In this document: piece after piece, positions 468 to 50,156 of the stretch
Position numbering within the stretch: position 1 is the first letter of the stretch
Layout: every line of letters begins with the position of its first letter
Assembly: GCF_001485575.1 (NCBI RefSeq)
Contig: NZ_BCNB01000002.1
Span: 310,001-374,000 of the forward strand
Length of the DNA stretch: 64,000 bases
From: Haloarcula sp. CBA1127
GTDB lineage: Archaea; Halobacteriota; Halobacteria; Halobacteriales; Haloarculaceae
Direction: 5' to 3'
Notes under the pieces: model-generated
What the model was told of the DNA's origin: nothing
The model's input: the letters and a program-made list of their open reading frames with translations, nothing else
Databases searched by the model: none
Position numbers and translations under genes: made by a program

Positions 468-3038
468 TCAGACCAGCGGTTCCTCGCGGACGGTTGCGTC
501 GTACCGCTCGCCCTCGTAGAGGATTTCGACGCTGGTCCCGGGTTCAGCGTACTCGGGTGGCAGATACGTGTAGGCCACGCAAGCGCCGACGGTGTAGCCG
601 TACTCGGCGCTGTGGAGGTAGCCGATGGTCTCGTCGCCGTCGAGGACCGGTTTGTTATCGAGCACAACAGCGTCCTCGTCATCGAGGGTCAGACAGGCTA
701 CCTTGTGGTCGATGTTGTCACCGTCGGCGGCTGCTGCGACTGCCTCCTTACCGATGAAGTCGGTTTCGAGGTCAACGGCCCATCCGAGTCCGGCCTCGTA
801 GGGATTGTGCTCCGTGTGGAGGTCCTTCCCCCAGAGTCGGAACCCTTTCTCGATTCGCAGCGAATTCAGCGCACCGTTGCCGTATGGACGAATGCCGTAC
901 TCCTCGCCGGCCTCCATTATGTGCTCCCAGAGGCGTTCGCCGTATTCCGACGGCGTGTAGAACTCCCAGCCGAGTTCACCAGCATAGGAAACGCGGAGTG
1001 CAGTCACGGGGATGTTCTTGACGAAGAACTGCTGGCTCGTGAAGAACGGGAAGGCGTCGTCGGAGAGGTCGATGTCGGTGACCTTCGAGAGGACTTTCCG
1101 GGCGTTCGGGCCGGTACAGACCATCGCCGCCAGACTGGAGGTCACGTCGTTCACGACCACGTCGTCGGGGGACTGCTCGCGCACCCACGCGACGTGGTTG
1201 TTCCCGACTTCGCGACCCGTCGTCAGCAGAAGGTAGCGGTCCTCGCCGGTCCGCGTGACCGTGATATCCGCCCGGACGCCACCGCCTTCGTTGCACATCA
1301 GCGTGTACTTCACGTCACCCACGTCAATGTCCATGTCGTTCGTACAGAGGTACTGGACGAACTCGCCGGCGTCGCTCCCGATGACCTCCATTTTGTTGAA
1401 AGAAGTCATGTCGTGGAGGCCGACGTTGTTACGCACGTTCAACGCCTCGGCTCCCTCGATTGGTGACCAGTACTTCGCTTCCCAGCCCCCGCGGTCGGGA
1501 ATCCGGTCGCCGTACTCCGCTAGCAGGTCGGCATTGGAGTCGAACCAGTGTGGTTCCTCCCAGCCGGCCTCGGCCCACAGCTCGGCGTCGTACTTCTTGT
1601 GGGTGTGGTACATCGGGGTTCGGCGGATATCCCGCTGTGTGTCGGTCCAGACCCACTTGGGGTGCATGATGTTGTAGACAATGCGGTACTCCTCACCGCC
1701 GATGTCCCGAGCGAAGTCCCAGCTGCCTTCGTGCTCGTCGAAGCGGTTCACGTCACAGTGGGCGAGGTCAATCGGGCCGGATGGGAGCCGCGGAACACCG
1801 TGTTCCATCCACTCGGCGAGCGCCTTGCCGGCACCGCCGGCGTGCGTGACCCAGATGGCCGCTGCCGTCCAGAGGCCGTCGTACTCCTGCACGGGACCCA
1901 TCACGGGGAGTCCGTTCGGCGACTCCGCGAACATCCCGTTGTACTTGTGTTCGAGTTCCTTGCCGGCCGTCGCGGGCAGCAGTTCGTCGCTGGCCTGACG
2001 AGGCGCCTTGTCCGGCCGGTCCGGATGGGTCGCGTTGTTCATGTGATAGTCCGTGAACTCGTGGACCGACCCCTGCTCGCCGTCGGGGTCGTTCCCGCCG
2101 AGGTCCTGCGGGTCGGGCACGATGGGGTCGTGGTTGTACGAGCCGATACCGTAGGAATCCCCGTGGTTCCGGTAGTACATCGCGTTGTCCTGGTCACGGA
2201 GAATCGGCCGGTCCGGACCCACAAGAAGTCGCTTTGCCTTCTCGCCGGAGACGTTCTCGTAGTTCTCGAACAGCGGATGGTCGGTGATATCGACCGCGCT
2301 GTCGGCCAGTTCATCGAGGGACTCCGTCATCGTGTACTGGTGCTCGACCGGCGTTACCGGCAGATGCACGTCGAGTTTCTCGCCGAGCTGGCGGGCCCAG
2401 ATGTTCGTTGCGATGACGACTTCGTTGCACTCGATACTGCCGTTCTCGGTGACGACGGCCTGCACTGAGCCGCCCTCAGTCTCGACGTCCTCGGTGCGCG
2501 TGTGTGGGACGAACTTCGCACCCCTCTCCATCGCTTCTCTGGCCAGCGCATCACAGGCGACGACGCCCGAGACCTGCCCGTCTGTCGGGGAGTAGTAGCC
2601 GCCCTTGATCTGGTCGGCGTCGACCAGCGGGAGGTGCTCGGTGACTTCTTCGGGCGAGAGCAACTGCGGGTCCTCGATGCCCCAAGCCTTGGCATACTCG
2701 ACGCGGCGCTGGAGGAAGTCCATGCGCTCCTCGCTGCGTGCGACTTCGATGCCACCTGTTTCGTTGTACGCCTGCTGCCCGTCGGCCCCTTCGAGGTCCG
2801 AGTACAGCCGCCGGCTGTAGTCCGCAAACTGGCTGAGGACCTTCGGTTCCGCGGTCTGAAACATGATTCCGGGGGCGTGCGTCGACGATCCGCCCGTGGT
2901 CGGCATCGGCCCTTGATCGACCACGACCACGTCCTCGCGGCCGAGCTCTGTCAGCTGGTAGGCGATGTTGCAGCCGACGATTCCAGCACCGACGATGACG
3001 GTATCGGCCTGGGTCGGCAGGCTATCGGTAGGCTCCAT
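468..3038 (-). CDS. FAD-dependent oxidoreductase fused to GcvT aminomethyltransferase (dimethylglycine/sarcosine dehydrogenase family)
   Basis: This 856-residue protein has the full two-part layout of the DMGDH/SARDH family. Residues 1 to about 390 form a DAO-type FAD domain with GAGIVG at 17-22 and GGSSTHAPG, whose His54 is placed to hold FAD covalently. About 430-850 form GcvT N- and C-domains, including the folate-site-like motif YAGELGWEF. Known family members oxidise N-methyl groups and pass the carbon to tetrahydrofolate as 5,10-methylene-THF. The start is the ATG at 3036-3038, about 35 nt after an AT-rich box (minus-strand ACTATATTG). The exact substrate (dimethylglycine, sarcosine or another methylamine) cannot be read from sequence. 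MetF, a DmdA-like protein and DHFR nearby support a one-carbon role. Confidence 0.88.
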   Translation of the reverse strand: MEPTDSLPTQADTVIVGAGIVGCNIAYQLTELGREDVVVVDQGPMPTTGGSSTHAPGIMFQTAEPKVLSQFADYSRRLYSDLEGADGQQAYNETGGIEVARSEERMDFLQRRVEYAKAWGIEDPQLLSPEEVTEHLPLVDADQIKGGYYSPTDGQVSGVVACDALAREAMERGAKFVPHTRTEDVETEGGSVQAVVTENGSIECNEVVIATNIWARQLGEKLDVHLPVTPVEHQYTMTESLDELADSAVDITDHPLFENYENVSGEKAKRLLVGPDRPILRDQDNAMYYRNHGDSYGIGSYNHDPIVPDPQDLGGNDPDGEQGSVHEFTDYHMNNATHPDRPDKAPRQASDELLPATAGKELEHKYNGMFAESPNGLPVMGPVQEYDGLWTAAAIWVTHAGGAGKALAEWMEHGVPRLPSGPIDLAHCDVNRFDEHEGSWDFARDIGGEEYRIVYNIMHPKWVWTDTQRDIRRTPMYHTHKKYDAELWAEAGWEEPHWFDSNADLLAEYGDRIPDRGGWEAKYWSPIEGAEALNVRNNVGLHDMTSFNKMEVIGSDAGEFVQYLCTNDMDIDVGDVKYTLMCNEGGGVRADITVTRTGEDRYLLLTTGREVGNNHVAWVREQSPDDVVVNDVTSSLAAMVCTGPNARKVLSKVTDIDLSDDAFPFFTSQQFFVKNIPVTALRVSYAGELGWEFYTPSEYGERLWEHIMEAGEEYGIRPYGNGALNSLRIEKGFRLWGKDLHTEHNPYEAGLGWAVDLETDFIGKEAVAAAADGDNIDHKVACLTLDDEDAVVLDNKPVLDGDETIGYLHSAEYGYTVGACVAYTYLPPEYAEPGTSVEILYEGERYDATVREEPLV

Positions 3039-5766: not shown

Positions 5767-6627
5767 ATGGCCCTCGGAACACACGCTATCTCAGACAGTC
5801 AGGGTGTCCGGACGCTGCTGACGAGCGCCCGGTTCGAACTGATGCCGTTCGAGAGCTTCGACGAGGAGATCACCCACCTCCCTGACGACGCGACTATCGC
5901 GATCACGACCTCGCCACAGCTCGGCATCGAGAAGACCGTGGAAAAGACGGAGGAAGCCGCCGAAATGGGGTTCGGTGTCGTGCCACACATTGCGGCCCGC
6001 TATGTAGAAGATCAGGAGCAACTCGAAGCGATCGCCGAGCGACTGGAGCAGGCAGGCATCACGGACATCTTCGTCCCAGGTGGAGACCGCGAGGAACCGG
6101 CCGGTGAGTACGAGTCGGCACATGACCTGCTCGAAGCGCTCGCAGAGACCGACTACTCCTTCGAAGAAGTGGGAATCACAGGCTACCCAGAGGGCCACGA
6201 CTTTATCGACGACGAAACGTTGGCGGAGTCGATGGCACAGAAAGCACCGTACGCGACGTACATCGTCACGCAGTTGTGTTACGACCCGGATACCGTGTTA
6301 GAGTGGGTCGAAGACATCCGTGCTCGCGGTATCGAACTCCCGGTCGAAGTCGGTATCCCGGGCGTGATGAACTACCAGCGCCTGATGCAGATATCTCAGA
6401 AAGTCGGCGTCGGTGACTCGATAAAGTTCCTCAGGAAGACGACGGGCATTCTCGGGTTCGTCAAGCAACTGGTTGGCTCCCGCGGGACCTACGAACCTGA
6501 CGAACTCATCGATGGGCTCGCGCCCTACGTCGGAGACGACGAGTACAACATCCGCGGCGTCCACATCTACACGTTCAATCAGACGCCTGATACGGAGAAA
6601 TGGCGGCACAACCGTCTCGACTCATGA
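5767..6627 (+). CDS. metF: Methylenetetrahydrofolate reductase-family protein (MetF-like)
   Basis: This 286-residue TIM-barrel protein interconverts 5,10-methylene-THF and 5-methyl-THF. Family features include VPGGDREEPAGEY, GITGYPEGH, VTQLCYDP and GIPGVMNYQRLMQIS followed by SIKFLRK. The N-terminus (RFELMPFESFDEEI, then ITTSPQLGIEKT) looks more like the shorter MetF paralogues that accompany LigM/DmdA-type demethylases than the biosynthetic enzyme. The convergent neighbour is exactly such a demethylase. The inferred role is therefore oxidation of 5-methyl-THF released by demethylation, with methionine supply as the alternative. It has its own promoter box at 5702. Confidence 0.85.
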   Translation: MALGTHAISDSQGVRTLLTSARFELMPFESFDEEITHLPDDATIAITTSPQLGIEKTVEKTEEAAEMGFGVVPHIAARYVEDQEQLEAIAERLEQAGITDIFVPGGDREEPAGEYESAHDLLEALAETDYSFEEVGITGYPEGHDFIDDETLAESMAQKAPYATYIVTQLCYDPDTVLEWVEDIRARGIELPVEVGIPGVMNYQRLMQISQKVGVGDSIKFLRKTTGILGFVKQLVGSRGTYEPDELIDGLAPYVGDDEYNIRGVHIYTFNQTPDTEKWRHNRLDS

Positions 6628-6913
6628 AACCGACCTGCTTACTGTCTGGACTCGGGACACTCAACTACAAGTAGCCTATTTACGACATCTCGCTGGCAGA
6701 GACTACCAGCGTGTCATACTGTGGCCAGCGTATCGACGCAGTCCAACAAGAAGCGTCAGTTGAGCTTTTCCGGGCAGCATCTATACGGCCGCGGAACTGC
6801 AGGAGAGGGGGACGGAGCTACAACGGTATCAGTGAAAACCGGAAGCGGCAACCGGGCGATAAAAGATCGGCGAACGAAAGAGAGGTGCGTTGCTGGGACA
6901 GCCGGAGTGAGGA

Positions 6914-8290
6914 TTAGTCGTCGCTTTCGGCCTCTTTCCGGGCGTTGAGCTTCGCCTGCTCACGGGCGCTCGGGTTGACAGACTCCTTGAACGGCACTTT
7001 CGCGGCGGTCGCGAACACCGGCTCACCGGGTTCGTCGGCGTACTCGTCGGGGAGATGGACCTGAAACTCTAAGTCCAGCTCCTCATCGTATATCTCGTCG
7101 TTGAGCGGCGTGTCAGTGACTTCCTGAATCTTCTCAGCCGGGACAAAGCCCATGCCGATGTTGGTCTCCAAGTCCGGGTTCCACCATGGAGAGGTGAGGT
7201 AGCCACATTCCTCGCCCGTGTCCGGGTCGGAGATGAGCCAGAAGTCGGGGGCGTAGTCACGGATCGGTTCGCCAGCGATCTTCAGGCCGATGAGTTTGTG
7301 CTCGAACGGGTAGTTGCCGTTCTCGATCTGTTCTTTCTGTTCTTCGAGAACCTCTTTGCCGATGTAGTCGGCCTCCTTGTCGTCGGGAACGTGGTAGCCC
7401 AGGTTGACCTGGAACGGCGAGGTCTCGTGGTCGAGGTCCTGACCCCAGGACATGATACCGGCGGCGATGCGGCGGTGGTGTCCCGGTGCGATCTGGCGAC
7501 CGTCGTGGTCTTTGACGGACTCCATAACGGGGTCCCAGACCTGTTCGGCGTTTTCCATCGCGTCTTTGACGTAGACCTCGAAGCCTTTCTCGCCCGAGAA
7601 GCCGGTCTGGCTGATCAACACGTCACAGCCGTTGATTTCGGCGTCCATCAGGCCGTAGTACGGGACATCTTTGACCTGGTCACCGACGACATCGACCATC
7701 ACGTCGAGCGCCCTTGGGCCCTGGATCTGCATCGGCGCGACGTCGATCTCGTCGATTTCGACGTCGAACTCGTTGTCGACGTTGACGCCCTGCAGCCACT
7801 GCATCAGCGTCGAGTCCGAGATGGAGAACCAGAACTCGTCTTCCTCGGGACGCAGGAGAACGGGGTCGTTGAGGACGCCACCGTCCTCGTTACAGAGGAT
7901 GACGTACTTTCCGTCCATGGCGTCCATGCCTGTCACGTCGCGGGTGACGACGTAGTTCGTCAGCGCCTCGGCGTCGGGCCCTTTGACCCGAATCTGTCGC
8001 TCTACGGCGACGTCCCAGAGGGTGACGGTGTTAGTCAGTGCGTCGTACTCCTTCATCACGCCGCCGTCCTCGGGCTCGATGAGGCCGCGCGGGTGATAGA
8101 GGCGGTTGTAGACGGTTGCCCGCCAGGCACCCTCCTCGTTGAAGGACTTGTGGAAGAACGGGGACTTTCGAACGCGCGTTGACACCAACATCTCGATGTT
8201 GGGGTCACCAGTCTGGCGGAGGTTACGGGGGACGGTCCGGTCTGACTGGTCGACACTGGGATAGTTAGGATGTTCCTCGTTACCGGTCAT
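6914..8290 (-). CDS. THF-dependent methyltransferase/demethylase of the DmdA/LigM branch of the GcvT family
   Basis: This 458-residue single-domain GcvT-fold protein lacks a flavin domain. It resembles dimethylsulfoniopropionate demethylase DmdA and aryl-O-demethylase LigM more than glycine-cleavage GcvT. Seen features are VRKSPFF near the start, LWDVAVERQIRVKG, GGVLNDPVLL followed by DEFWFSISDSTL, IQGPRALDVM, TGFSGEKGFEVYV and a C-terminal barrel. GcvT carries an Asp pair (GGxxDD) where this protein has GGVLND, as in DmdA. Known members move a methyl group from sulfur or oxygen to THF, giving 5-methyl-THF. MetF is convergent next door and DHFR lies upstream. The substrate cannot be assigned. 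Confidence 0.8.
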   Translation of the reverse strand: MTGNEEHPNYPSVDQSDRTVPRNLRQTGDPNIEMLVSTRVRKSPFFHKSFNEEGAWRATVYNRLYHPRGLIEPEDGGVMKEYDALTNTVTLWDVAVERQIRVKGPDAEALTNYVVTRDVTGMDAMDGKYVILCNEDGGVLNDPVLLRPEEDEFWFSISDSTLMQWLQGVNVDNEFDVEIDEIDVAPMQIQGPRALDVMVDVVGDQVKDVPYYGLMDAEINGCDVLISQTGFSGEKGFEVYVKDAMENAEQVWDPVMESVKDHDGRQIAPGHHRRIAAGIMSWGQDLDHETSPFQVNLGYHVPDDKEADYIGKEVLEEQKEQIENGNYPFEHKLIGLKIAGEPIRDYAPDFWLISDPDTGEECGYLTSPWWNPDLETNIGMGFVPAEKIQEVTDTPLNDEIYDEELDLEFQVHLPDEYADEPGEPVFATAAKVPFKESVNPSAREQAKLNARKEAESDD

Positions 8291-8526
8291 GCCTATGAAA
8301 GAAGATGTGAAATACTAATAAAGGATATTGTTACTTGCTTCTGGGGTTTATATGCGGGGAGACTTTGCAGGCAGTGACGATACTCTGAACCGTTGTTTAA
8401 CAGCCCCAGAGCATGAATATTCAGCGAAATACGGTATCGCGTTTCTCGGCTGAGACTGGTAGCTGTCGTACGAAACGACCGGCACGGAACACGACCGAGC
8501 GGGCGCTGTGACTGCTCGGAAAAATA

Positions 8527-9024
8527 TCAGTCCGAGTCACTGCTGATTCGGGTGTATTTGACGATATCGAAGTCGCTGTGTGTCGTTCGTTCCGTCTCGG
8601 ACCAGCACGACCAGTCGACCGTCGGGAAGACGGTATCGCCGTCGAAAGCCGCCGTTAGTTCCGTGAGGATTAGCTCGTCGGCCTGTGGGAGAAACTGCTC
8701 GTACACAGTAGCGCCACCAATGACGTAGGTCGTAGATGCTCCGCTGTCGGCCGCTTCGGTCAACGCCGCCGTCGTCGAGGTGACAGCTGTGACGCTGTCA
8801 GGAAGGTGATGCGGCGTCGTAGTCAGAACAATGTTTACTCGCTCCGGCAGTGGGCCGTCGAGATCGCGGCGGATGCTCTCGAAGGTCCGCCGCCCCATAA
8901 TCACCGGATGACCGACAGTTGTCTCTTTGAAATGTGTCAGATCCTCGGGATACTGCCACGGAATGTCGCCGCCGGCACCGATCACTCTGTTTGCCGCGAC
9001 GGCGGCAATCAACGAGAGTTTCAT
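8527..9024 (-). CDS. folA: Dihydrofolate reductase
   Basis: This 165-residue enzyme is of normal DHFR length and reduces dihydrofolate to tetrahydrofolate with NADPH. Seen motifs are [12 protein letters not shown] at the N-terminus, [12 protein letters not shown], the cofactor-site segment [11 protein letters not shown] and [21 protein letters not shown] use the ATG at 9022-9024, not the longer frame from 9069, because a TATA-like CTTTATTA lies about 27 nt upstream, as expected for a leaderless haloarchaeal mRNA. It sits in the same orientation as the DmdA-like gene. It could supply folate for the neighbouring THF enzymes as well as for thymidylate synthesis. Confidence 0.95.
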
Positions 9025-37298: not shown

Positions 37299-38192
37299 CT
37301 AGGGAAGTGTAATATCGACGCCGGACTGCAGGCTAGCCGCTTTCACGGTGTTGTACATTAGCATTGCAATGGTGAGCGGGCCGACACCGCCGGGAACCGG
37401 GGTGATGGCGTCCGCTTTCGCTTTGGCGCTCTCGAAGTCCACGTCCCCGACGAGTTCGTACCCCTTCTCCGTGTCAGCAGCAACCCGGTTGATACCCACG
37501 TCGATAACTGTCGTGCCCGCCGAGAGCATCGACCCGTCTATCATTTCCGGAACCCCGGCGGCGGCGATCACGATGTCCGCGTTGCGAGTCTTGTTCGCGA
37601 GGTCATCAGTCCGGGAGTGGCAGACGGTCGTTGTCGCGTTCCCGCCCGGCCCGTACTGGATGAGCAGGTTCGCCATCGGTTTGCCGACGATGTCCGAGCG
37701 TCCGACGACAACGGCGTCTTTCCCCTCTGTCTCAACACCAGTTTCGGCCAGTATCTTCTGTATTCCGTGGGGCGTGCAGGGTTTGTATCGCGCGTTCCCT
37801 GCGACGAGCCGACCGACGTTTTCCGGGTGGAACCCGTCGACATCTTTCATCGGGTCGATGCGCTCCAGTACGTCACGCTTGTTCACGTGGTCGGGGACCG
37901 GCATCTGGACGAGGATTCCGTGGACGGCCGGGTCCGCGTTCAGTTCGTCGATGGTCCCAAACAGCGTCTCGGCCGGTTCGTCCGCGCTGATTTCGTAATG
38001 GAACCCCTCGATGCCGATCTCCTCACAGGCCTGTTGTTTCATCGAGACGTACGTCTCACTCGCGCCGTCGTCGCTCATTAGCACCGTCGCCAGCCCCGGT
38101 GTGACACCCTCGCTGACGAGCGTGTCCGTACACGCCGCGACGCCCTCCGTGATCTGGTCGCCGATTTCGTTCCCGTCGATTACTGTAGTCAT
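37299..38192 (-). CDS. folD: Bifunctional methylene-THF dehydrogenase/methenyl-THF cyclohydrolase
   Basis: This 297-residue FolD oxidises 5,10-methylene-THF to 10-formyl-THF in two steps. Seen motifs are the catalytic lysine in ETYVSMKQQACEEIGI, QMPVPDHVNKRDVLERIDP, the NADP-binding VVVGRSDIVGKPMANLL and the C-terminal PGGVGPLTIAMLMYN. It is monocistronic. In this window it links the methylene-THF-producing flavoproteins and MetF at the left edge to formate, if a formyl-THF-releasing enzyme exists elsewhere. Confidence 0.96.
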   Translation of the reverse strand: MTTVIDGNEIGDQITEGVAACTDTLVSEGVTPGLATVLMSDDGASETYVSMKQQACEEIGIEGFHYEISADEPAETLFGTIDELNADPAVHGILVQMPVPDHVNKRDVLERIDPMKDVDGFHPENVGRLVAGNARYKPCTPHGIQKILAETGVETEGKDAVVVGRSDIVGKPMANLLIQYGPGGNATTTVCHSRTDDLANKTRNADIVIAAAGVPEMIDGSMLSAGTTVIDVGINRVAADTEKGYELVGDVDFESAKAKADAITPVPGGVGPLTIAMLMYNTVKAASLQSGVDITLP

Positions 38193-38507: not shown

Positions 38508-40019
38508 ATGACTGAGATTCGATTCAGCACCGACAAAGAATCGTTCATCGAAACTGCGAGGGCAGCAGCGGACGGCGCCCGTGTGCCGGTCGAGGCGCGC
38601 GTCACCGTTGCTGACCCGTTCGAAGCGTATCGCCGCGCCCGCGACGAGAACACAGACGGCTTCTATCTCGAAACGACCGGTGGGCAGTCGGGCTGGGGGT
38701 ACTTCGGCATCGAGCCAATCGAGCGCGTCGAGGTGTCCGCAGGAGCGACACCCGCACAGGATGGCGGAAGTCCGAGTCTCGAAGCTATCGACAACCTACT
38801 CGACCGCGAACACCTAGAACGGGGCGACTGTACGGTTCCATACCCGTGTGGCGCGTTCGGGTGGCTTTCCTACGACGTAGCACGGGAACTAGAGGACATC
38901 CCAGAGACGACCGTTTCGGATGGCCTCCCACGGCTTCAGTTTGGCGTGTTCGACTGCATCGCCGCGTGGGAGGAGCCACACGACGGGGACGTCGAGATGC
39001 ATGTAACGGCCTGTCCCACCGTCGACGGGTCGCCTGAATCGGCATTCGAGCGTGGCCGGACGATGGCCCAAGAGCTAGCACAGGACGCCATCCACGGCGA
39101 GAAACACGTCCAGTCCCAGCCGACCGCTGCAAGTCAGGCCACGTTCGAAAGCGAGTGCGGCGAGGCAGCGTTCGCCGACCGCGTCCGACAAATAAAACAG
39201 TACGTCAGGGACGGCGACACGTTCCAGACAAACGTCTCACACCGGCTGACCGCCCCGGCGGCCGTCCACCCGGTCGACACCTTCGACGCTGTCCGTCGGG
39301 TGAATCCGGCTCCGTACTCAGCCCTGCTTGAGTTCCCCGGCGTCGACCTTGTCAGCGCCAGCCCGGAGCTGTTGCTGGACGTCGATGGGGACCAGTTGCT
39401 CACTGAGCCGATTGCCGGAACGCGGCCGCGAGGCGCGACGCCGTCCGAAGACGAGGATCTTGAGGCAGACCTCTGTAGCGACGAGAAGGAGCGGGCCGAA
39501 CACGCCATGCTGGTCGACCTCGAACGCAACGACCTCGGCAAGGTCAGCGAGTACGGGTCCGTCGATGTCGCCGAGTACCGCCGCGTCGACCGGTATTCAG
39601 AGGTGATGCACCTCGTTTCCCTCATCGAAGGGGAGTTACGCGACGACGTGAGCATTGCCGACGCGGTCGCAGCCGTGTTCCCCGGCGGAACCATCACCGG
39701 CGCGCCGAAACCGCGGACGATGGAGATTATCGACGAGGTGGAGCGGACCCGACGGGGGCCCTACACCGGCAGTATCGGGATGTTCGGTTTCGACGAGCGA
39801 GCGACGTTGAACATCACGATCAGGACGCTGGTTCACTACGACGGCGAGTATCGCCTCCGTGTCGGGAGTGGCATCGTACACGACTCCGTTCCAGAGGCGG
39901 AGTACCGGGAGACACTGGACAAGGCCCGGGCGCTCGTTACTGCCGTCGACGAGGCACTCGGCGAACAGGGGTCGTTCGCGGTCGAATCCGGGACCGAACC
40001 GATGGAGGGAATGCGATGA
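38508..40019 (+). CDS. trpE: Anthranilate synthase component I
   Basis: This 503-residue chorismate-using enzyme shows [11 protein letters not shown] near 266-276, [18 protein letters not shown] at 301-310, [23 protein letters not shown] and [16 protein letters not shown]. The residue in PIAGT is Ala, as in anthranilate synthases; aminodeoxychorismate synthases (PabB) carry Lys there (PIKGT). I therefore call TrpE rather than PabB despite the neighbouring folate gene. The start is the ATG at 38508, not 38448. It overlaps trpG by 4 bp, so the two subunits are cotranslated. Confidence 0.92.
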
Positions 40020-40588
40020 TACTCATCATCGACAACTACGACTCCTTCGCATACAATCTGGTCCAGTACGTCGGCGAGTTCGACGAGGTCACGGTCCGTC
40101 GGAACGACGCTATCGACGTCGCGGGCATCCACGAACTCGACCCGGACGGCATCGTCGTCTCACCGGGGCCCGGGACGCCAGCGGAGGCCGGCGTGTCCAT
40201 TGACGTGTTCGCCGAGACAGAGTACCCGGCGCTTGGCGTCTGTCTGGGCCACCAGGCGCTCTGTGCGGCCCACGGGACTCCTGTTGGCCACGCACCGAGC
40301 GTGGTCCACGGGAAGCCCTCGGAGGTCCGCCACGATGGAACGAGGCTATACGACGGCGTCGACGACCCGTTCGAAGTCGGGCGGTATCACTCGCTGGCCG
40401 TCGAAGCAACGGAACTCCCGGACACGCTTTCGGAAACGGCCCACACGAACGACGAGCAGGGCATCGTGATGGGCGTCCAGCACGCCGAAAAACCGCACAT
40501 CGGCGTCCAGTTCCATCCGGAGAGCATCCTCACTGACGCCGGGAAACAGATCGTCGAGAACTTCTGTACCGGAATCGCCAAGGCCTAA
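40016..40588 (+). CDS. trpG: Anthranilate synthase component II (glutamine amidotransferase)
   Basis: This 190-residue class I amidotransferase supplies ammonia to TrpE. The triad is visible as Cys76 in GVCLGHQA and the His/Glu of [21 protein letters not shown] and VVSPGPGTP are also typical. It could in principle serve a PabB as well, but only the PIAGT-type partner is adjacent. Confidence 0.95.
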
Positions 40589-44876: not shown

Positions 44877-45146
44877 CTACCGCAGCTCCATCTGTTCTGC
44901 TCGCTCTGCGGCGAGCGTCGTCAGTTCGTCGACGCTGCTGTCCGAGCGGTCCGCGAGGACGCGAAGCAACATCCCGAGCTGTATCGCCGCTGCCTCGCGG
45001 AGTTCAGCCGCCTCCTCGGTGTCGTTACCGAAGTAGTACTCGTGGCGGCCGTCCTCGTGGATAATACCGGTGTACACCGAGCGCAGGTCGGCCTCGGTTA
45101 TTGCGGCTGACGCCTCCGCCTTGACTTCCTTGAACCGTGGATTCAT
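44877..45146 (-). CDS. Conserved-looking 89-residue protein next to formate dehydrogenase
   Basis: This 89-residue acidic helical protein (EVKAEASAAITEADLRSVYT, then HEDGRHEYYFGNDTEEAAEL) has no Cys, membrane segment or DNA-binding motif. I do not recognise a family. It is divergent from the formate dehydrogenase genes and convergent with the RidA gene. Its acidic composition and codon use support a real gene. Confidence 0.65.
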   Translation of the reverse strand: MNPRFKEVKAEASAAITEADLRSVYTGIIHEDGRHEYYFGNDTEEAAELREAAAIQLGMLLRVLADRSDSSVDELTTLAAERAEQMELR

Positions 45147-45324: not shown

Positions 45325-46848
45325 ATGACTCGGGAAACCACGGCCCTCGCTCATTCGACCGCCGTCCGGGTATCGACGGACGGCCGGTCACAGAACGAGG
45401 ACAGGGTCCTCTCCGCGGCGCGAGCGACAGCGGATTCGACGCCGGTCGTCAGGACGGGACCGACGGGCATCACAGCAGCCACACCGCTTGTGATGGTCAC
45501 GCGTAGCGGACGGACAGCGTTCTACGGCGACCCGCCGCCGGGTACTGTCCGTGACCTCGTCAGTGAACTGGAAGCGGGAACAGTACCGACAGCCGATGCG
45601 GACGCCGTCGTCGAACACGACCCCGAAACGGCCTCGCTCCCCATCCCCGAGCGTGGCCCGCTCTCGGTCGGCCGCCGCGACGTACTCGGTCCCTGCGGCT
45701 GGGTCGCCCCACTGGAGCCGGCCGACTGGTCGTTCGTCTCGCCCGAGCAGACTGCCGACGCTGCAGCAGCAGCCGGGCTGCTGGGCCGGGGCCGCGGGGA
45801 CGCCGCCGCTGACGAACCGGTCGCCGATACGTGGGAAACAGCCAGCGAAACCGACGGTGACCCAGTGGTCGTCTGTAACGCCAACGACGCCAGCGACCTC
45901 CCAACAGGCGACGACACTCTACTGTCCGGCGCACCGATGGCAGTCCTGGACGGGATTGGAGCGGTCGCCGAGTACGTGGACGCTGTCGACGCTGTCGTCT
46001 ATGTAAACGAGTCGCAGACCGACTTGCAGGCGCACCTCCGCGAGGCAATCGACGCGGCCGCCGACACCCTGCCTGTCGTTCCGCAGCTGGTGGCCGGTCC
46101 GGACGAGTTCCGCGCCGGCGAGCCCACGGCGGCGCTCGAAGCACTGGAAGGAGCCGACCGCATCGAGCCGCGGCTCCAGCCGCCCGCACCGGCCAAACGC
46201 GGCCTATACGGCCGCCCGACAGTCATCCACACCCCGCGAACGTTCGCGCACGTCCAGCGAGCAGTTGCCGATCCCGATAGCGTCGACGCTGACGCGGCGG
46301 ACCCCGGGACGCGACTTGTCACGGTCACCGGTGACGTTGCCAACCGGGCGACGGTCGAACTTGGGTCCAGCGCAAGCCTCGCAGCGGTTCGCGGAGCGGT
46401 CGAGATGGACGGGTCGTTCAAGATGGCCTGCGTCGGCGGCGTTCTCGGCGGTGTCACTCGCAGCCTCGACATGGCACCGACCGCACAGTCGCTCCGAGCG
46501 GCCGGGCTCGGAACCAATGGCGTCGTCGAACTGTTCGACACCGGTCGATGTACCGTTGAAACGGTTGGGAAGCGGGCGCGGTTCGCATCGATGGAGAACA
46601 GCGGCCGGTGTGTGCCCGGTCGCGAGGGAACGAAGCAGCTCGCAGAACTCCTTCGTGACGTATATGACGGCTCGTTCGAGAGCGACAAGATACGTGAACT
46701 CGGCCGCGTGATGCGTCAGTCGAGTAACTGCCAGACCGGCGCGCATGCGCCACGGCCGGTGACCACCGCCATCGACGAGTTCGAACCCGAGTTCCGCGCT
46801 CACACGAACGGACACTGTCCTAGCGGTACCTGTACGGAGAAACTATGA
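45325..46848 (+). CDS. NuoF/HndC-like formate dehydrogenase accessory subunit with degenerate cofactor motifs
   Basis: This 507-residue protein follows the layout of NuoF/HndC subunits. There is a thioredoxin-like N-terminus (GPTGITAATPLVMV at 45-58), an FMN/NADH domain (about 140-320), an SLBB-like segment (about 328-361) and a C-terminal Fe-S region (about 424-480). The key motifs are altered. The FMN loop expected as RGRGGAGFPTG reads RGRGDAAADEP (154-164), and the N-terminal CxxxxC is absent. ESCGxCxPCR reads ENSGRCVPGR (424-433), keeping one of three cysteines. It overlaps the catalytic subunit gene by 4 bp. It may be structural or use another electron acceptor. Confidence 0.8.
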   Translation: MTRETTALAHSTAVRVSTDGRSQNEDRVLSAARATADSTPVVRTGPTGITAATPLVMVTRSGRTAFYGDPPPGTVRDLVSELEAGTVPTADADAVVEHDPETASLPIPERGPLSVGRRDVLGPCGWVAPLEPADWSFVSPEQTADAAAAAGLLGRGRGDAAADEPVADTWETASETDGDPVVVCNANDASDLPTGDDTLLSGAPMAVLDGIGAVAEYVDAVDAVVYVNESQTDLQAHLREAIDAAADTLPVVPQLVAGPDEFRAGEPTAALEALEGADRIEPRLQPPAPAKRGLYGRPTVIHTPRTFAHVQRAVADPDSVDADAADPGTRLVTVTGDVANRATVELGSSASLAAVRGAVEMDGSFKMACVGGVLGGVTRSLDMAPTAQSLRAAGLGTNGVVELFDTGRCTVETVGKRARFASMENSGRCVPGREGTKQLAELLRDVYDGSFESDKIRELGRVMRQSSNCQTGAHAPRPVTTAIDEFEPEFRAHTNGHCPSGTCTEKL

Positions 46849-49800
46849 GCACAGACAGATCGATTCCACGAGTTCCAGATCTACACGACCCACAGCCCGA
46901 GACGCCAGTTACCCGCGAGTTCGAGACCGGAACCGCTAACGACCCGGCCGTGGGGACCGACACGGACGACCCGACGACGCTGACAGTCGACGGCGAGCGG
47001 GTCACGGTCGCCCCGGGGTCGACCATCATCGACGCTCTGCAGGACCTCGACGACGATATCGTCAGTGTCGACCCCGGCGCAGAGGGCGTCGAAGACGATG
47101 CTGACGTACCTGCGCTGTGTTACTACGACCGTGACGGTGACTGTAGCGATGAGATCGGCCCGCGCAGTGAGTGTCGGACCTGCATGGTCGAGACAGAGGA
47201 GCACGGTCTCGTCCCATCGTGCTCGTTCCCTGCCGAAGACGGCCTATCCGTCTCGACGGACACCCCCGATGCCGAGGAAGCCCGCAGCGTCAACCTCGAC
47301 CTCGTGCTGTCGAACCATAACCTCCGGTGTACCACCTGCAACGGCAACGGGCGCTGTGAGTTGCAGGACGCCGCCATCAGCGAGGGCGTCGACCACCCCA
47401 GATACGGCGTCTTCGACGAGCGCGACCAGTACGAACCCATCGACGACACTTCCTCGTTCATCCAGATCGACCGCAACAAGTGCATTCTCTGTAACCGGTG
47501 TGTCGACGCCTGCAACGACGTGCAGGTGGAAGGTGTCCTTCGAATCGAAGGTCACGGCGAGGACACCCGCATCGGCTTCCAGTCCGACGCCGAGACGATG
47601 CACGACTCTGAGTGCGTCTCCTGTGGGCACTGCGCCACCGTCTGCCCCACCGGCTCGCTGACCGAGAAGGGCATCGACGGCGCGGCGACGCTCCCGCTGC
47701 CGGGGTTCACGCAACGGAACTCCATCGGGACCGTCATCGAACACGAGGACGCCGAGACCATCGACGACACCACCGCCCCGAATCGCGGATTCGAACCCGA
47801 CGACCCGAGAGCAGCGAAGGGGAAGCAAGGCCTCGCCAGATTCGCCTCAGCGGCCAAACGCCGCGCTGGGGACATCGCCAAAGACTACGGCAAAAAGGCG
47901 TTCCTCGCCGGCGAACACACCGCCGAGAGCATCGCAGCAAACACGATGCCCGAGGGCCGACTGTTCGACATCGCCGACCTGGTCAGCGACTACCGACTCT
48001 CGAAAATTGACAAAGAGGAAACGACCTGCGGGTTCTGTGCCGTCGGCTGCCGGTTCGAGATGTGGGGCAAAGACGGCGACTCGCTCGGCGTCGTTCCGGT
48101 CGATGACCCCGACGACGCGCCCGCGAACAACTTTTCGACTTGCGTAAAAGGGAAGTTCGGCCACGAGTTCGCCAACAGCGAGCAACGGGTCACCGAACCA
48201 CTCATCCGCAACGACGACGGCGACCTCGAACCGACGACCTGGGACGAGGCGCTTGAGTATGTCGCCGAGCGCTTCACCGAGATTCAGGACGCCCACGGCA
48301 TCGACTCGCTTGGCTGTCTCGCCTCTTCGAAGGGGAGTAACGAGGAGGCATACCTCGTCCAGAAGTTTGCCCGACAGGTGCTTGGGACGAAGAACATCGA
48401 TAACTGCGCGCGACTGTGTCACTCCTCGACGGTGGCGGCGCTCCAGCAAACGCTTGGCTACGGCGCGATGACCAACCGTATCAACGAGGACATCGGCGAG
48501 GCTGACGCCTACCTCATCAGCGGCTCCAACACGACGGAGTCCCATCCGGTGCTCGCCACGCGAATCAAGCAAAACGTCCGGGATGGAGCGGACCTCGTCG
48601 TGTTCGACCCACGGAAGGTCGGTATCGCCGAACACGCCGACCAGTACACCCGGACCAACCCCGGCTACGACGTGGCCTGGCTCAACGGCCTGATTCGGTA
48701 CATCATCGAACACAACCTCCACGACGAGGACTTCATCGAGCGCAACACGAAGAACTTCGAGGAGGTCAGGGAGAAAGTTCAGGCGTTCACGCCCGAGAAA
48801 GTCGAGGAACTGGCAGGCGTGTCGCCGGACGAACTCGCCTCGGCCGCCGAAACGCTTGCCGAGGCCGACAGCGTTGTCTTCGGCTGGGCGATGGGGATGA
48901 CCCAGCAGAGCCACGGCACGGAGAACCTCATCGCGATGGCCGACCTCGCGCTCGTCCTCGGGCAGGTCGGCAAGCCTGGTGCCGGCCTCTCGCCGTTCCG
49001 CGGGCAGAACAACGTTCAGGGCGGCGGCGGCGACATGGGGACGCTTCCGGGGAGCCTGCCAGGGTATCAGAACCCGGCGGACGACGAGGTCGGCGAGAAG
49101 TTTGCCGACGCGTGGGGCGAGCGACCGCCCGAGGAACCCGGACTCAAAGTGCCGGAGATGCTCGCCGAGGCCCACGCGGGGAACCTCCGCGGGATGTACG
49201 TCGTCGGCGAGAACCCGGCGCTCTCGGAACCCGACATCCAGCACGCCGCCGAGGCGCTGGAAGACATGGAGTTCCTCGTCGTTCAGGATATCTTCATGAC
49301 CGAGACGGCGGAGTATGCCGACGTGGTGCTCCCAGCGGCTACCTCGCCGGAGAAACACGGGACGTTCACCAATACGGAGCGACGCATCCAGCGAGTTCGG
49401 CCCACGTCCGAGCCGCCAGGCAAGGCCCGCCAGGACTGGGAGATAACGCAGGCGCTGGCCCATCGGCTCGGCTACAACTGGGACTACGACCACCCACGTG
49501 AGGTCATGGACGAAATCAACTCGCTCGCGCCAATCTACGGTGGCGTCACCTACGACCGCCTCGAATCCGGCGCGGAACACGGCCTCCAGTGGCCCTGCTG
49601 GGACGAGGATCACGAGGGCACGCCGTACCTCTATGACTACGACGAGGGGAAGTTCAACTTCGAGGACGGGAAGGCCCGCTTCGTTCCCGCCGATGGTGGA
49701 CACCCCGGCGAGATTCCCGACGAGGAGTATCCGCTGACGCTCACTTCGGGGCGCGTGCTGTATCACTGGCACACGGGTCAGATCACCCGCCGCGTCGAGG

Positions 49801-50156
49801 GACTGATGAGCCACGTCGGCGAGAGCTTCGTCGAGGTGCATCCCGAGACGGCCGAGAAACTCGGCATCGCCGATGAGGAGTACGTCCGCGTCGAGTCCCG
49901 ACGGGGTGACATCGTTGTCAAGGCGCAAGTGACCGAGCGCGTCGGCCCGGGGACGCTATTCATCCCGATGCACTTCGCTGCCGGCGCGGTCAACAAACTC
50001 ACCGGCGAGACGTTCGACCCGACAGCCGGCATTCCTGAGTACAAGGTGTCCAGCGTTCGTGTGGAAGTGCTGGGGCCGGAGACAGACGAACAGGTGCTCC
50101 GGACGCCAGACGCTGGTGGGAAACAGATCCGGAAGCGAGGCGCTGGCGACGACTGA
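46845..50156 (+). CDS. fdhA: Formate dehydrogenase catalytic subunit with NuoG-like N-terminus
   Basis: This 1103-residue molybdopterin oxidoreductase oxidises formate to CO2. The N-terminus binds a [2Fe-2S] cluster (Cys92, Cys110, Cys113, Cys126), then a His/Cys cluster (His158, Cys162, Cys165, Cys171) and two ferredoxin-type clusters (Cys213/216/219/223 and Cys257/260/263/267). After a linker rich in basic and helical residues (about 320-390) comes the catalytic domain with a [4Fe-4S] set Cys395/398/402/433. The Mo/W ligand is Cys525 followed by His526 (CARLCHSSTV). The C-terminal domain (about 970-1080) binds the cofactor. It has no signal peptide, so it is cytoplasmic, and pairs with the NuoF-like protein. 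Confidence 0.93.
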   Translation: MSTDRSIPRVPDLHDPQPETPVTREFETGTANDPAVGTDTDDPTTLTVDGERVTVAPGSTIIDALQDLDDDIVSVDPGAEGVEDDADVPALCYYDRDGDCSDEIGPRSECRTCMVETEEHGLVPSCSFPAEDGLSVSTDTPDAEEARSVNLDLVLSNHNLRCTTCNGNGRCELQDAAISEGVDHPRYGVFDERDQYEPIDDTSSFIQIDRNKCILCNRCVDACNDVQVEGVLRIEGHGEDTRIGFQSDAETMHDSECVSCGHCATVCPTGSLTEKGIDGAATLPLPGFTQRNSIGTVIEHEDAETIDDTTAPNRGFEPDDPRAAKGKQGLARFASAAKRRAGDIAKDYGKKAFLAGEHTAESIAANTMPEGRLFDIADLVSDYRLSKIDKEETTCGFCAVGCRFEMWGKDGDSLGVVPVDDPDDAPANNFSTCVKGKFGHEFANSEQRVTEPLIRNDDGDLEPTTWDEALEYVAERFTEIQDAHGIDSLGCLASSKGSNEEAYLVQKFARQVLGTKNIDNCARLCHSSTVAALQQTLGYGAMTNRINEDIGEADAYLISGSNTTESHPVLATRIKQNVRDGADLVVFDPRKVGIAEHADQYTRTNPGYDVAWLNGLIRYIIEHNLHDEDFIERNTKNFEEVREKVQAFTPEKVEELAGVSPDELASAAETLAEADSVVFGWAMGMTQQSHGTENLIAMADLALVLGQVGKPGAGLSPFRGQNNVQGGGGDMGTLPGSLPGYQNPADDEVGEKFADAWGERPPEEPGLKVPEMLAEAHAGNLRGMYVVGENPALSEPDIQHAAEALEDMEFLVVQDIFMTETAEYADVVLPAATSPEKHGTFTNTERRIQRVRPTSEPPGKARQDWEITQALAHRLGYNWDYDHPREVMDEINSLAPIYGGVTYDRLESGAEHGLQWPCWDEDHEGTPYLYDYDEGKFNFEDGKARFVPADGGHPGEIPDEEYPLTLTSGRVLYHWHTGQITRRVEGLMSHVGESFVEVHPETAEKLGIADEEYVRVESRRGDIVVKAQVTERVGPGTLFIPMHFAAGAVNKLTGETFDPTAGIPEYKVSSVRVEVLGPETDEQVLRTPDAGGKQIRKRGAGDD

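Follow-up and report, generated by a model that had tools for sequence, protein, structure and literature searches.

A haloarchaeal formate dehydrogenase subunit with the NuoF/HydB fold and a replaced FMN/NAD site

Introduction

In the characterised NuoF, HydB and FdsB proteins that we considered, FMN mediates the exchange of electrons with NAD. In Haloarcula sp. CBA1127, a gene for a subunit of this type, with degenerate FMN and NAD motifs, overlaps the gene for a formate dehydrogenase (FDH) catalytic subunit, which raises the question of what such a subunit does for its partner and where the electrons of formate go. We analysed the window of 64,000 nucleotides that holds both genes (contig NZ_BCNB01000002.1, positions 310,001 to 374,000); all coordinates below refer to this window, and features lie on the plus strand unless indicated otherwise. 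A search confined to open-licence literature found no paper on this subunit.

Fold of the NuoF-like subunit

The gene (45325..46848; protein P0001, 507 aa) has the position, strand and frame given in the initial annotation. Its product matches the Pfam families Complex1_51K (1.9e-13) and NADH_4Fe-4S (9e-19), whereas the NuoF models score far under their cut-offs (TIGR01959, 115.8 bits against 558.65). The best sequence match among solved structures is HydB of an electron-bifurcating hydrogenase (7t2r_B, 3.4e-41). An AlphaFold2 model built from 88 relatives reached a mean pLDDT of 94.6 and could be superposed along its entire length on FdsB and HydB/NfnB (Z 38-44, rmsd 2.3-3.0; Z 34-44 for the full-length fold matches taken together). 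An N-terminal thioredoxin-like domain (residues 12-112; 45358..45660), aligned in the fold comparison, is followed by Rossmann, SLBB and four-helix domains, whose presence in this order identifies the NuoF/HydB (complex I 51-kDa) fold. No other Complex1_51K gene is present in the genome.

Flavin, NAD and N-terminal [2Fe-2S] sites

To follow the cofactor sites through the family, we aligned 107 non-identical family members with 12 homologues of the same class that are intact, and scored the positions that contact FMN or NAD in A. mobile HydB (PMC8880783), leaving out the equivalent of F307. The former FMN-phosphate loop (residues 154-170, GRGRGDAAADEPVADTW; 45784..45834) is four residues longer than the canonical loop, carries a near-invariant D159, and has T169 at the position of the FMN lysine; among the 107 homologues, the equivalent of this lysine (K177) is A, T, E, V or another residue. 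The former acidic FMN/NAD segment (residues 183-197, VCNANDASDLPTGDD; 45871..45915) is likewise altered, and the F180 equivalent is mostly T. In the former CGEETAL segment (residues 264-275; 46114..46149), the glutamate that contacts the NAD ribose (E287) corresponds to P267, with proline in 91 of the 107 sequences. The former NNVET segment (residues 302-306; 46228..46242) reads HTPRT, its asparagines being replaced by H and T and its glutamate by R305, which is invariant in all 107. The only contacts that survive are N194 (103/107) and E197, as E or D (87/107), so that the set expected of an FMN/NADH enzyme (K177, N194, E197, E287, F180 and the NNVET contacts) is largely gone. The two canonical cysteines of the N-terminal [2Fe-2S] site are replaced in every one of the 107 sequences.

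These results bear out most of the initial annotation, which had pointed to an FMN loop reading RGRGDAAADEP and an acidic segment reading NDASDLPTGDD, both exact in the translation, and to the loss of the N-terminal Cys motif, whose canonical GCxGxC positions are occupied by P46 and T50. It had also proposed that the subunit is incapable of normal NAD use and suggested examining the altered loop in haloarchaeal homologues; the same replacements are common to the 107 sequences. K177, E287, F180 and the asparagines of NNVET are exchanged in every one of them or almost every one, which argues against normal NAD use. The residues for NAD reduction in NAD-dependent FDHs of the FdsABG type likewise appear to be missing from the NuoF-like subunit. 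Most replacements are fixed rather than scattered, with D159, E272, E281, R283, H302 and R305 conserved at 98-100%. The best explanation is that flavin and NAD were given up before the haloarchaeal family diversified. By fold the protein is a NuoF/HydB subunit; judged by its residues, it lacks the chemistry that defines that family.

Iron–sulfur and metal sites of the four-helix domain

The B1/N3 [4Fe-4S] loop of the window protein (residues 424-435, ENSGRCVPGREG; 46594..46629) retains one of its three cysteines (S426, C429, G432), and the fourth ligand, C469 (residues 467-472; 46723..46740), is cysteine in 107/107. With the canonical rows of intact homologues omitted, the ligands are C-C-C-C in 53 of the 107 family members, C-C-G-C in 7, C-S-C-C in 1 and S-C-G-C in 46, the last group including Haloarcula. 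Thus the initial annotation's string ENSGRCVPGR is exact for the window protein, but the loss that it implied does not extend to the whole family, half of which has the full set. FMN and Fe-S ligands elsewhere in a correct alignment would have refuted the initial annotation; none came to light for FMN or NAD, while N3 goes partly against it, half of the family having all four ligands and the Haloarcula clade two cysteines and an invariant serine.

In a quick tree calculated without the B1 ligand columns and with SH-aLRT support only, the family is separate from the intact HydB proteins (starred support, 100), and the S-C-G-C members form one clade (starred support, 99) that spans several families. 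As the loss of the FMN/NAD site is family-wide and S-C-G-C is a single clade inside the family, flavin and NAD were lost first and B1 was altered later. The third B1 cysteine was replaced several independent times, always by glycine; the C-C-G-C state accounts for four label changes on the tree, at least three of them forced by starred branches. C429 and C469 are invariant throughout the Haloarcula clade, and for this reason we do not call the B1 cluster simply lost. The whole stretch N425-T436 around the altered ligands is invariant in 25 representatives of the clade.

The initial annotation did not mention a further metal site of HydB type, which is intact. Its ligands, matched by alignment to those of A. 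mobile HydB, are C409 (AmHydB C438; 46549..46551), H493, C498 and C503 (AmHydB H525, C531 and C536; 46801..46833), conserved in 107/107, 107/107, 107/107 and 105/105 sequences with data, respectively; Tyr447 is the semi-conserved fifth ligand. Only four residues follow C503 (the last is residue 507), and the C-terminal 2x[4Fe-4S] domain (B3, B4) of Bfu enzymes is absent, as are the FMN residues. The HydB site has been read as [2Fe-2S] in A. mobile (PMC8880783) and as Zn in T. maritima (PMC9499530). The family studied here keeps this site even though FMN and the C-terminal ferredoxin domain are missing and B1 is altered, so that a structural metal, as expected of Zn, would be the simpler reading.

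The catalytic partner FdhA

The stop codon of the NuoF-like gene and the start codon of fdhA share an ATGA overlap (46845..46848), which is kept in all 13 Haloarcula loci checked. FdhA (46845..50156, 1103 aa) scores 827.6 bits with TIGR01591, over the cut-off of 666.25, and with C525-H526 and R719 (CH/RGQ motif) it is a formate dehydrogenase alpha subunit with a complete Mo domain. Its NuoG/HydA-type Fe-S module (46968..47669), recognised by profile match and ligands, contains a [2Fe-2S], a His-Cys [4Fe-4S] and two further [4Fe-4S] sites; none of these ligands varies among the partners, regardless of the B1 type (one partner sequence being incomplete). The earlier proposal of a retained subunit translationally coupled to a full catalytic partner thus holds.

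The association extends through the family. Of the 105 loci that could be tested, 104 have fdhA directly downstream of the NuoF-like gene, and all 141 genomes that encode the NuoG-like Fe-S module of FdhA also encode the NuoF-like subunit. Two apparent cases of a NuoG module without NuoF (G356 and G180) proved false, tblastn having located a NuoF gene upstream (L142, L143). Three genomes have the NuoF-like gene only: one holds a deletion remnant (G063; L150:7995-9026), where the first part of the NuoF-like gene continues in frame into the last part of fdhA, as though a single deletion had cut both, one is truncated by a contig end (G368), and the third is G339. Real exceptions are found in one genus (G330 and G358; L097, L144-L146), where fdhA and the NuoF-like gene are separated and the split fdhA operons contain no copy of the latter; the copy in L097 is an orphan with serine for one B1 cysteine. 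In a number of split-type operons (L110:13462-15504; similarly L102, L107, L111, L116, L119 and L145), a second Mo-enzyme-like protein is encoded after a DUF1641 gene. No RGQ was found in it, the L110 copy has no Molybdop_Fe4S4 domain, and it is possibly a degenerate FdhA paralogue.

Further differences of FdhA were considered. In the S-C-G-C clade, the His-Cys loop (FdhA residues 162-171; 47328-47357) reads CTTCNGNGRC instead of CTTCG[KQ]NGRC, and such fixed differences may reflect plain descent. Cys100, an extra cysteine in the FdhA [2Fe-2S] loop, was rejected as a replacement ligand, because only 29 of the 44 S-C-G-C partners have it and it also occurs in L121. The FdhD sulfurtransferase is an accessory trait of known bis-MGD FDHs. 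Despite the standard CH/RGQ site, a single HMM (PF02634) detected no FdhD in the Haloarcula genome or in 25 related genomes; absent from all 26, it explains nothing here as a missing partner.

Family distribution, selection and genomic context

The NuoF-like family is present in 144 of 391 haloarchaeal genomes, about a third, and no member was detected outside haloarchaeal kin in a phylum sample at E 1e-60. Haloarcula homologues are mostly 82-93% identical to the window protein. The dN/dS of the NuoF-like gene against other Haloarcula is 0.10-0.19, compared with 0.03-0.10 for fdhA, and is lowest (0.048) in the four-helix domain, which houses the altered cluster. Relative to FdhA, the NuoF-like subunit evolves at a rate of 1.72 in the S-C-G-C clade and 1.80 in the C-C-C-C group, and its helix domain at 1.22 and 1.44, respectively. 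The ruined domain of the S-C-G-C clade is therefore not under relaxed constraint, and the gene, far from being a pseudogene or a purely local peculiarity, is under purifying selection.

Upstream of the NuoF-like gene lies a small divergent gene (44877..45146, minus strand, 89 aa) without a family match, which is kept beside FDH loci of the S-C-G-C type (25 loci with a match). Farther away, family and domain matches identify genes of folate and C1 metabolism: folD, for methylene-THF dehydrogenase/cyclohydrolase (37299..38192, minus strand); pabB and pabA, for folate precursor synthesis (38508..40588; PabB-clade2, 410.7 bits against 408.55); MTHFR (plus strand), a GCV_T protein (minus strand) and DHFR (minus strand) within 5767..9024; and a DAO-GCV_T fusion with the architecture of sarcosine/dimethylglycine dehydrogenases (468..3038, minus strand). 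A gene for FTHFS (formate-THF ligase) is located 10.9 kb before the window. A syntenic segment of H. hispanica pHH400 carries these genes too and, in addition, those for EtfBA and dihydropteroate synthase, and in named records the nuoF-like and fdhA genes reside on replicons of about 400 kb. This folate/demethylation island could oxidise methyl groups via folate to formate, with FDH completing the pathway. About half of the S-C-G-C loci that were mapped have genes for FolD and PabAB no more than 8 kb away, but just two or three C-C-C-C loci do, which makes the folate link strongest in Haloarcula and Haladaptatus; the folate-gene neighbourhood is a feature of these genera and a few others, not of most of the family.

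Discussion

On balance, we favour the view that the NuoF-like subunit is a redox-silent, or nearly silent, cap or docking partner derived from a HydB-like ancestor, and that a soluble, Fe-S-rich FdhA hands on electrons one at a time to a one-electron carrier, of which ferredoxin is the likeliest. FdhA would oxidise formate, which, to judge from gene content, is plausibly released from folate-bound C1 units by the demethylation genes, and the electrons would pass along its full Fe-S chain as in homologues. With no FMN in the NuoF-like subunit, no two-electron hydride acceptor would be served and the electrons would exit one by one. In four-Cys members the exit would probably be the B1 [4Fe-4S] cluster; for the Haloarcula clade it would be either the [2Fe-2S] cluster of FdhA or a B1 in altered form. 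The acceptor would most likely be the [2Fe-2S] ferredoxin that takes the place of NAD in other redox reactions of haloarchaea: in these archaea ferredoxin is reduced by oxidative decarboxylation and also used in nitrate assimilation, and NuoEFG are missing from the Nuo complex (PMC8305020). The identity of the acceptor is thus suggested by haloarchaeal physiology and not by a linked gene, as no ferredoxin gene was seen linked to the nuoF-fdhA locus. A role in structure and docking would agree with the invariant metal site and the constrained four-helix domain. Of the fates listed in the initial annotation (structural, or transfer to ferredoxin, quinone or another acceptor), the analysis narrows the choice but does not decide it.

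Not every observation fits a silent cap. The new fixed polar residues D159, H302, R305 and E272 could mark a new ligand in the flavin pocket rather than an empty or plugged one, and a remodelled pocket that holds another cofactor or carrier (for instance F420, FAD or some other nucleotide) and continues to act as the catalytic exit would account for positions fixed on new residues at 98-100% instead of drifting. We consider it quite unlikely, because no match to other cofactor-binding families was obtained and fixed salt-bridge residues would equally fit a plugged structural pocket. The exit might instead lie at B1, rebuilt and not lost, with Ser426, Cys429, Cys469 and perhaps the clade-invariant C124 or C369 holding an Fe-S cluster with one open iron position as a new outlet for single electrons. 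The recurrent exchange of the third cysteine for glycine alone and the invariance of N425-T436 would fit this; we regard it as a possibility, though a doubtful one. That the subunit is a functionless relic in the course of being lost is hardly credible: its cofactor sites were lost stepwise, and the deletion remnant and the orphan copy are of the expected kind, but dN/dS is low, the ruined domain is the most constrained, no acceleration followed the B1 change, and co-occurrence with the Fe-S module is complete.

Other readings place the difference in the acceptor. The FDH could be loosely membrane-bound and reduce menaquinone like ForCE of Bacillus, the NuoF-like subunit merely stabilising it. 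ForCE has a catalytic subunit of the FdhA architecture seen here and functions in the absence of a NuoF (PMC8808070), and some distant family members, in split-type operons, adjoin a gene for DUF1641, the partner in menaquinone-linked ForCE, which also speaks against a silent cap feeding ferredoxin. However, none of the 71 partners with a visible site has the CQ/RGH of ForC, all being CH/RGQ or CH/RGH, and DUF1641, which occurs only in the split-type relatives, is not found beside the window operon or in the S-C-G-C loci mapped, so we judge menaquinone an unlikely acceptor. In a further reading, taken from a proposal for the cytoplasmic Halodesulfurarchaeum FDH (PMC5437934, PMC6176080), the enzyme would bifurcate electrons with the help of a separate EtfAB, for which the EtfBA pair carried by the same replicon in H. 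hispanica would be a candidate. That pair is encoded next to an FAD oxidoreductase, some 52 kb away from nuoF-fdhF, and would more simply serve the demethylating dehydrogenases; with no etf gene recognised among the recurrent neighbours, this route seems very improbable.

The silent-cap reading can be set against known systems. HydB/BfuB of bifurcating hydrogenases (7t2r, 7p8n) and NfnB/StnB have the same thioredoxin-like, Rossmann, SLBB and four-helix domains and the same C-His-C-C site; compared with HydB/BfuB, the NuoF-like subunit lacks the FMN/NAD site, the N-terminal [2Fe-2S] cysteines and the C-terminal 2x[4Fe-4S], and in its clade B1 is altered. FdsB of the NAD-dependent FDHs of Rhodobacter and Cupriavidus (9ktl, 6tg9, 6vw7; fold Z 42-44) likewise partners a homologous FDH catalytic subunit, but it binds FMN and reduces NAD, and the residues responsible are replaced in the NuoF-like subunit. 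ForCE of Bacillus subtilis carries the same N-terminal Fe-S module on its FDH catalytic subunit and works without NAD, indicating that an FdhA architecture of this type can serve menaquinone too (PMC8808070); it combines CQ/RGH with a DUF1641 partner, whereas the Haloarcula FDH combines CH/RGQ with a NuoF-like partner. Within the same class, the homologous NiFe-Bfu HydB of Halorhabdus-like haloarchaea (L128-L139) has all motifs intact, is encoded in a [NiFe]-hydrogenase operon (L147-L149) and is the outgroup to the NuoF-like family (starred support, 100).

The haloarchaea thus possess a class-wide family in which the FMN/NAD site is switched off while the fold, the partner and the metal site are kept, a natural dissection of what the NuoF/HydB fold does without flavin. 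The family warns against gene names such as 'NADH dehydrogenase FAD-containing subunit' for its members. It also bears on the dispute over Zn or [2Fe-2S] in the HydB site, which is invariant here where neighbouring redox centres are gone. Finally, it shows how an NAD enzyme could become a one-electron partner in lineages run on ferredoxin.
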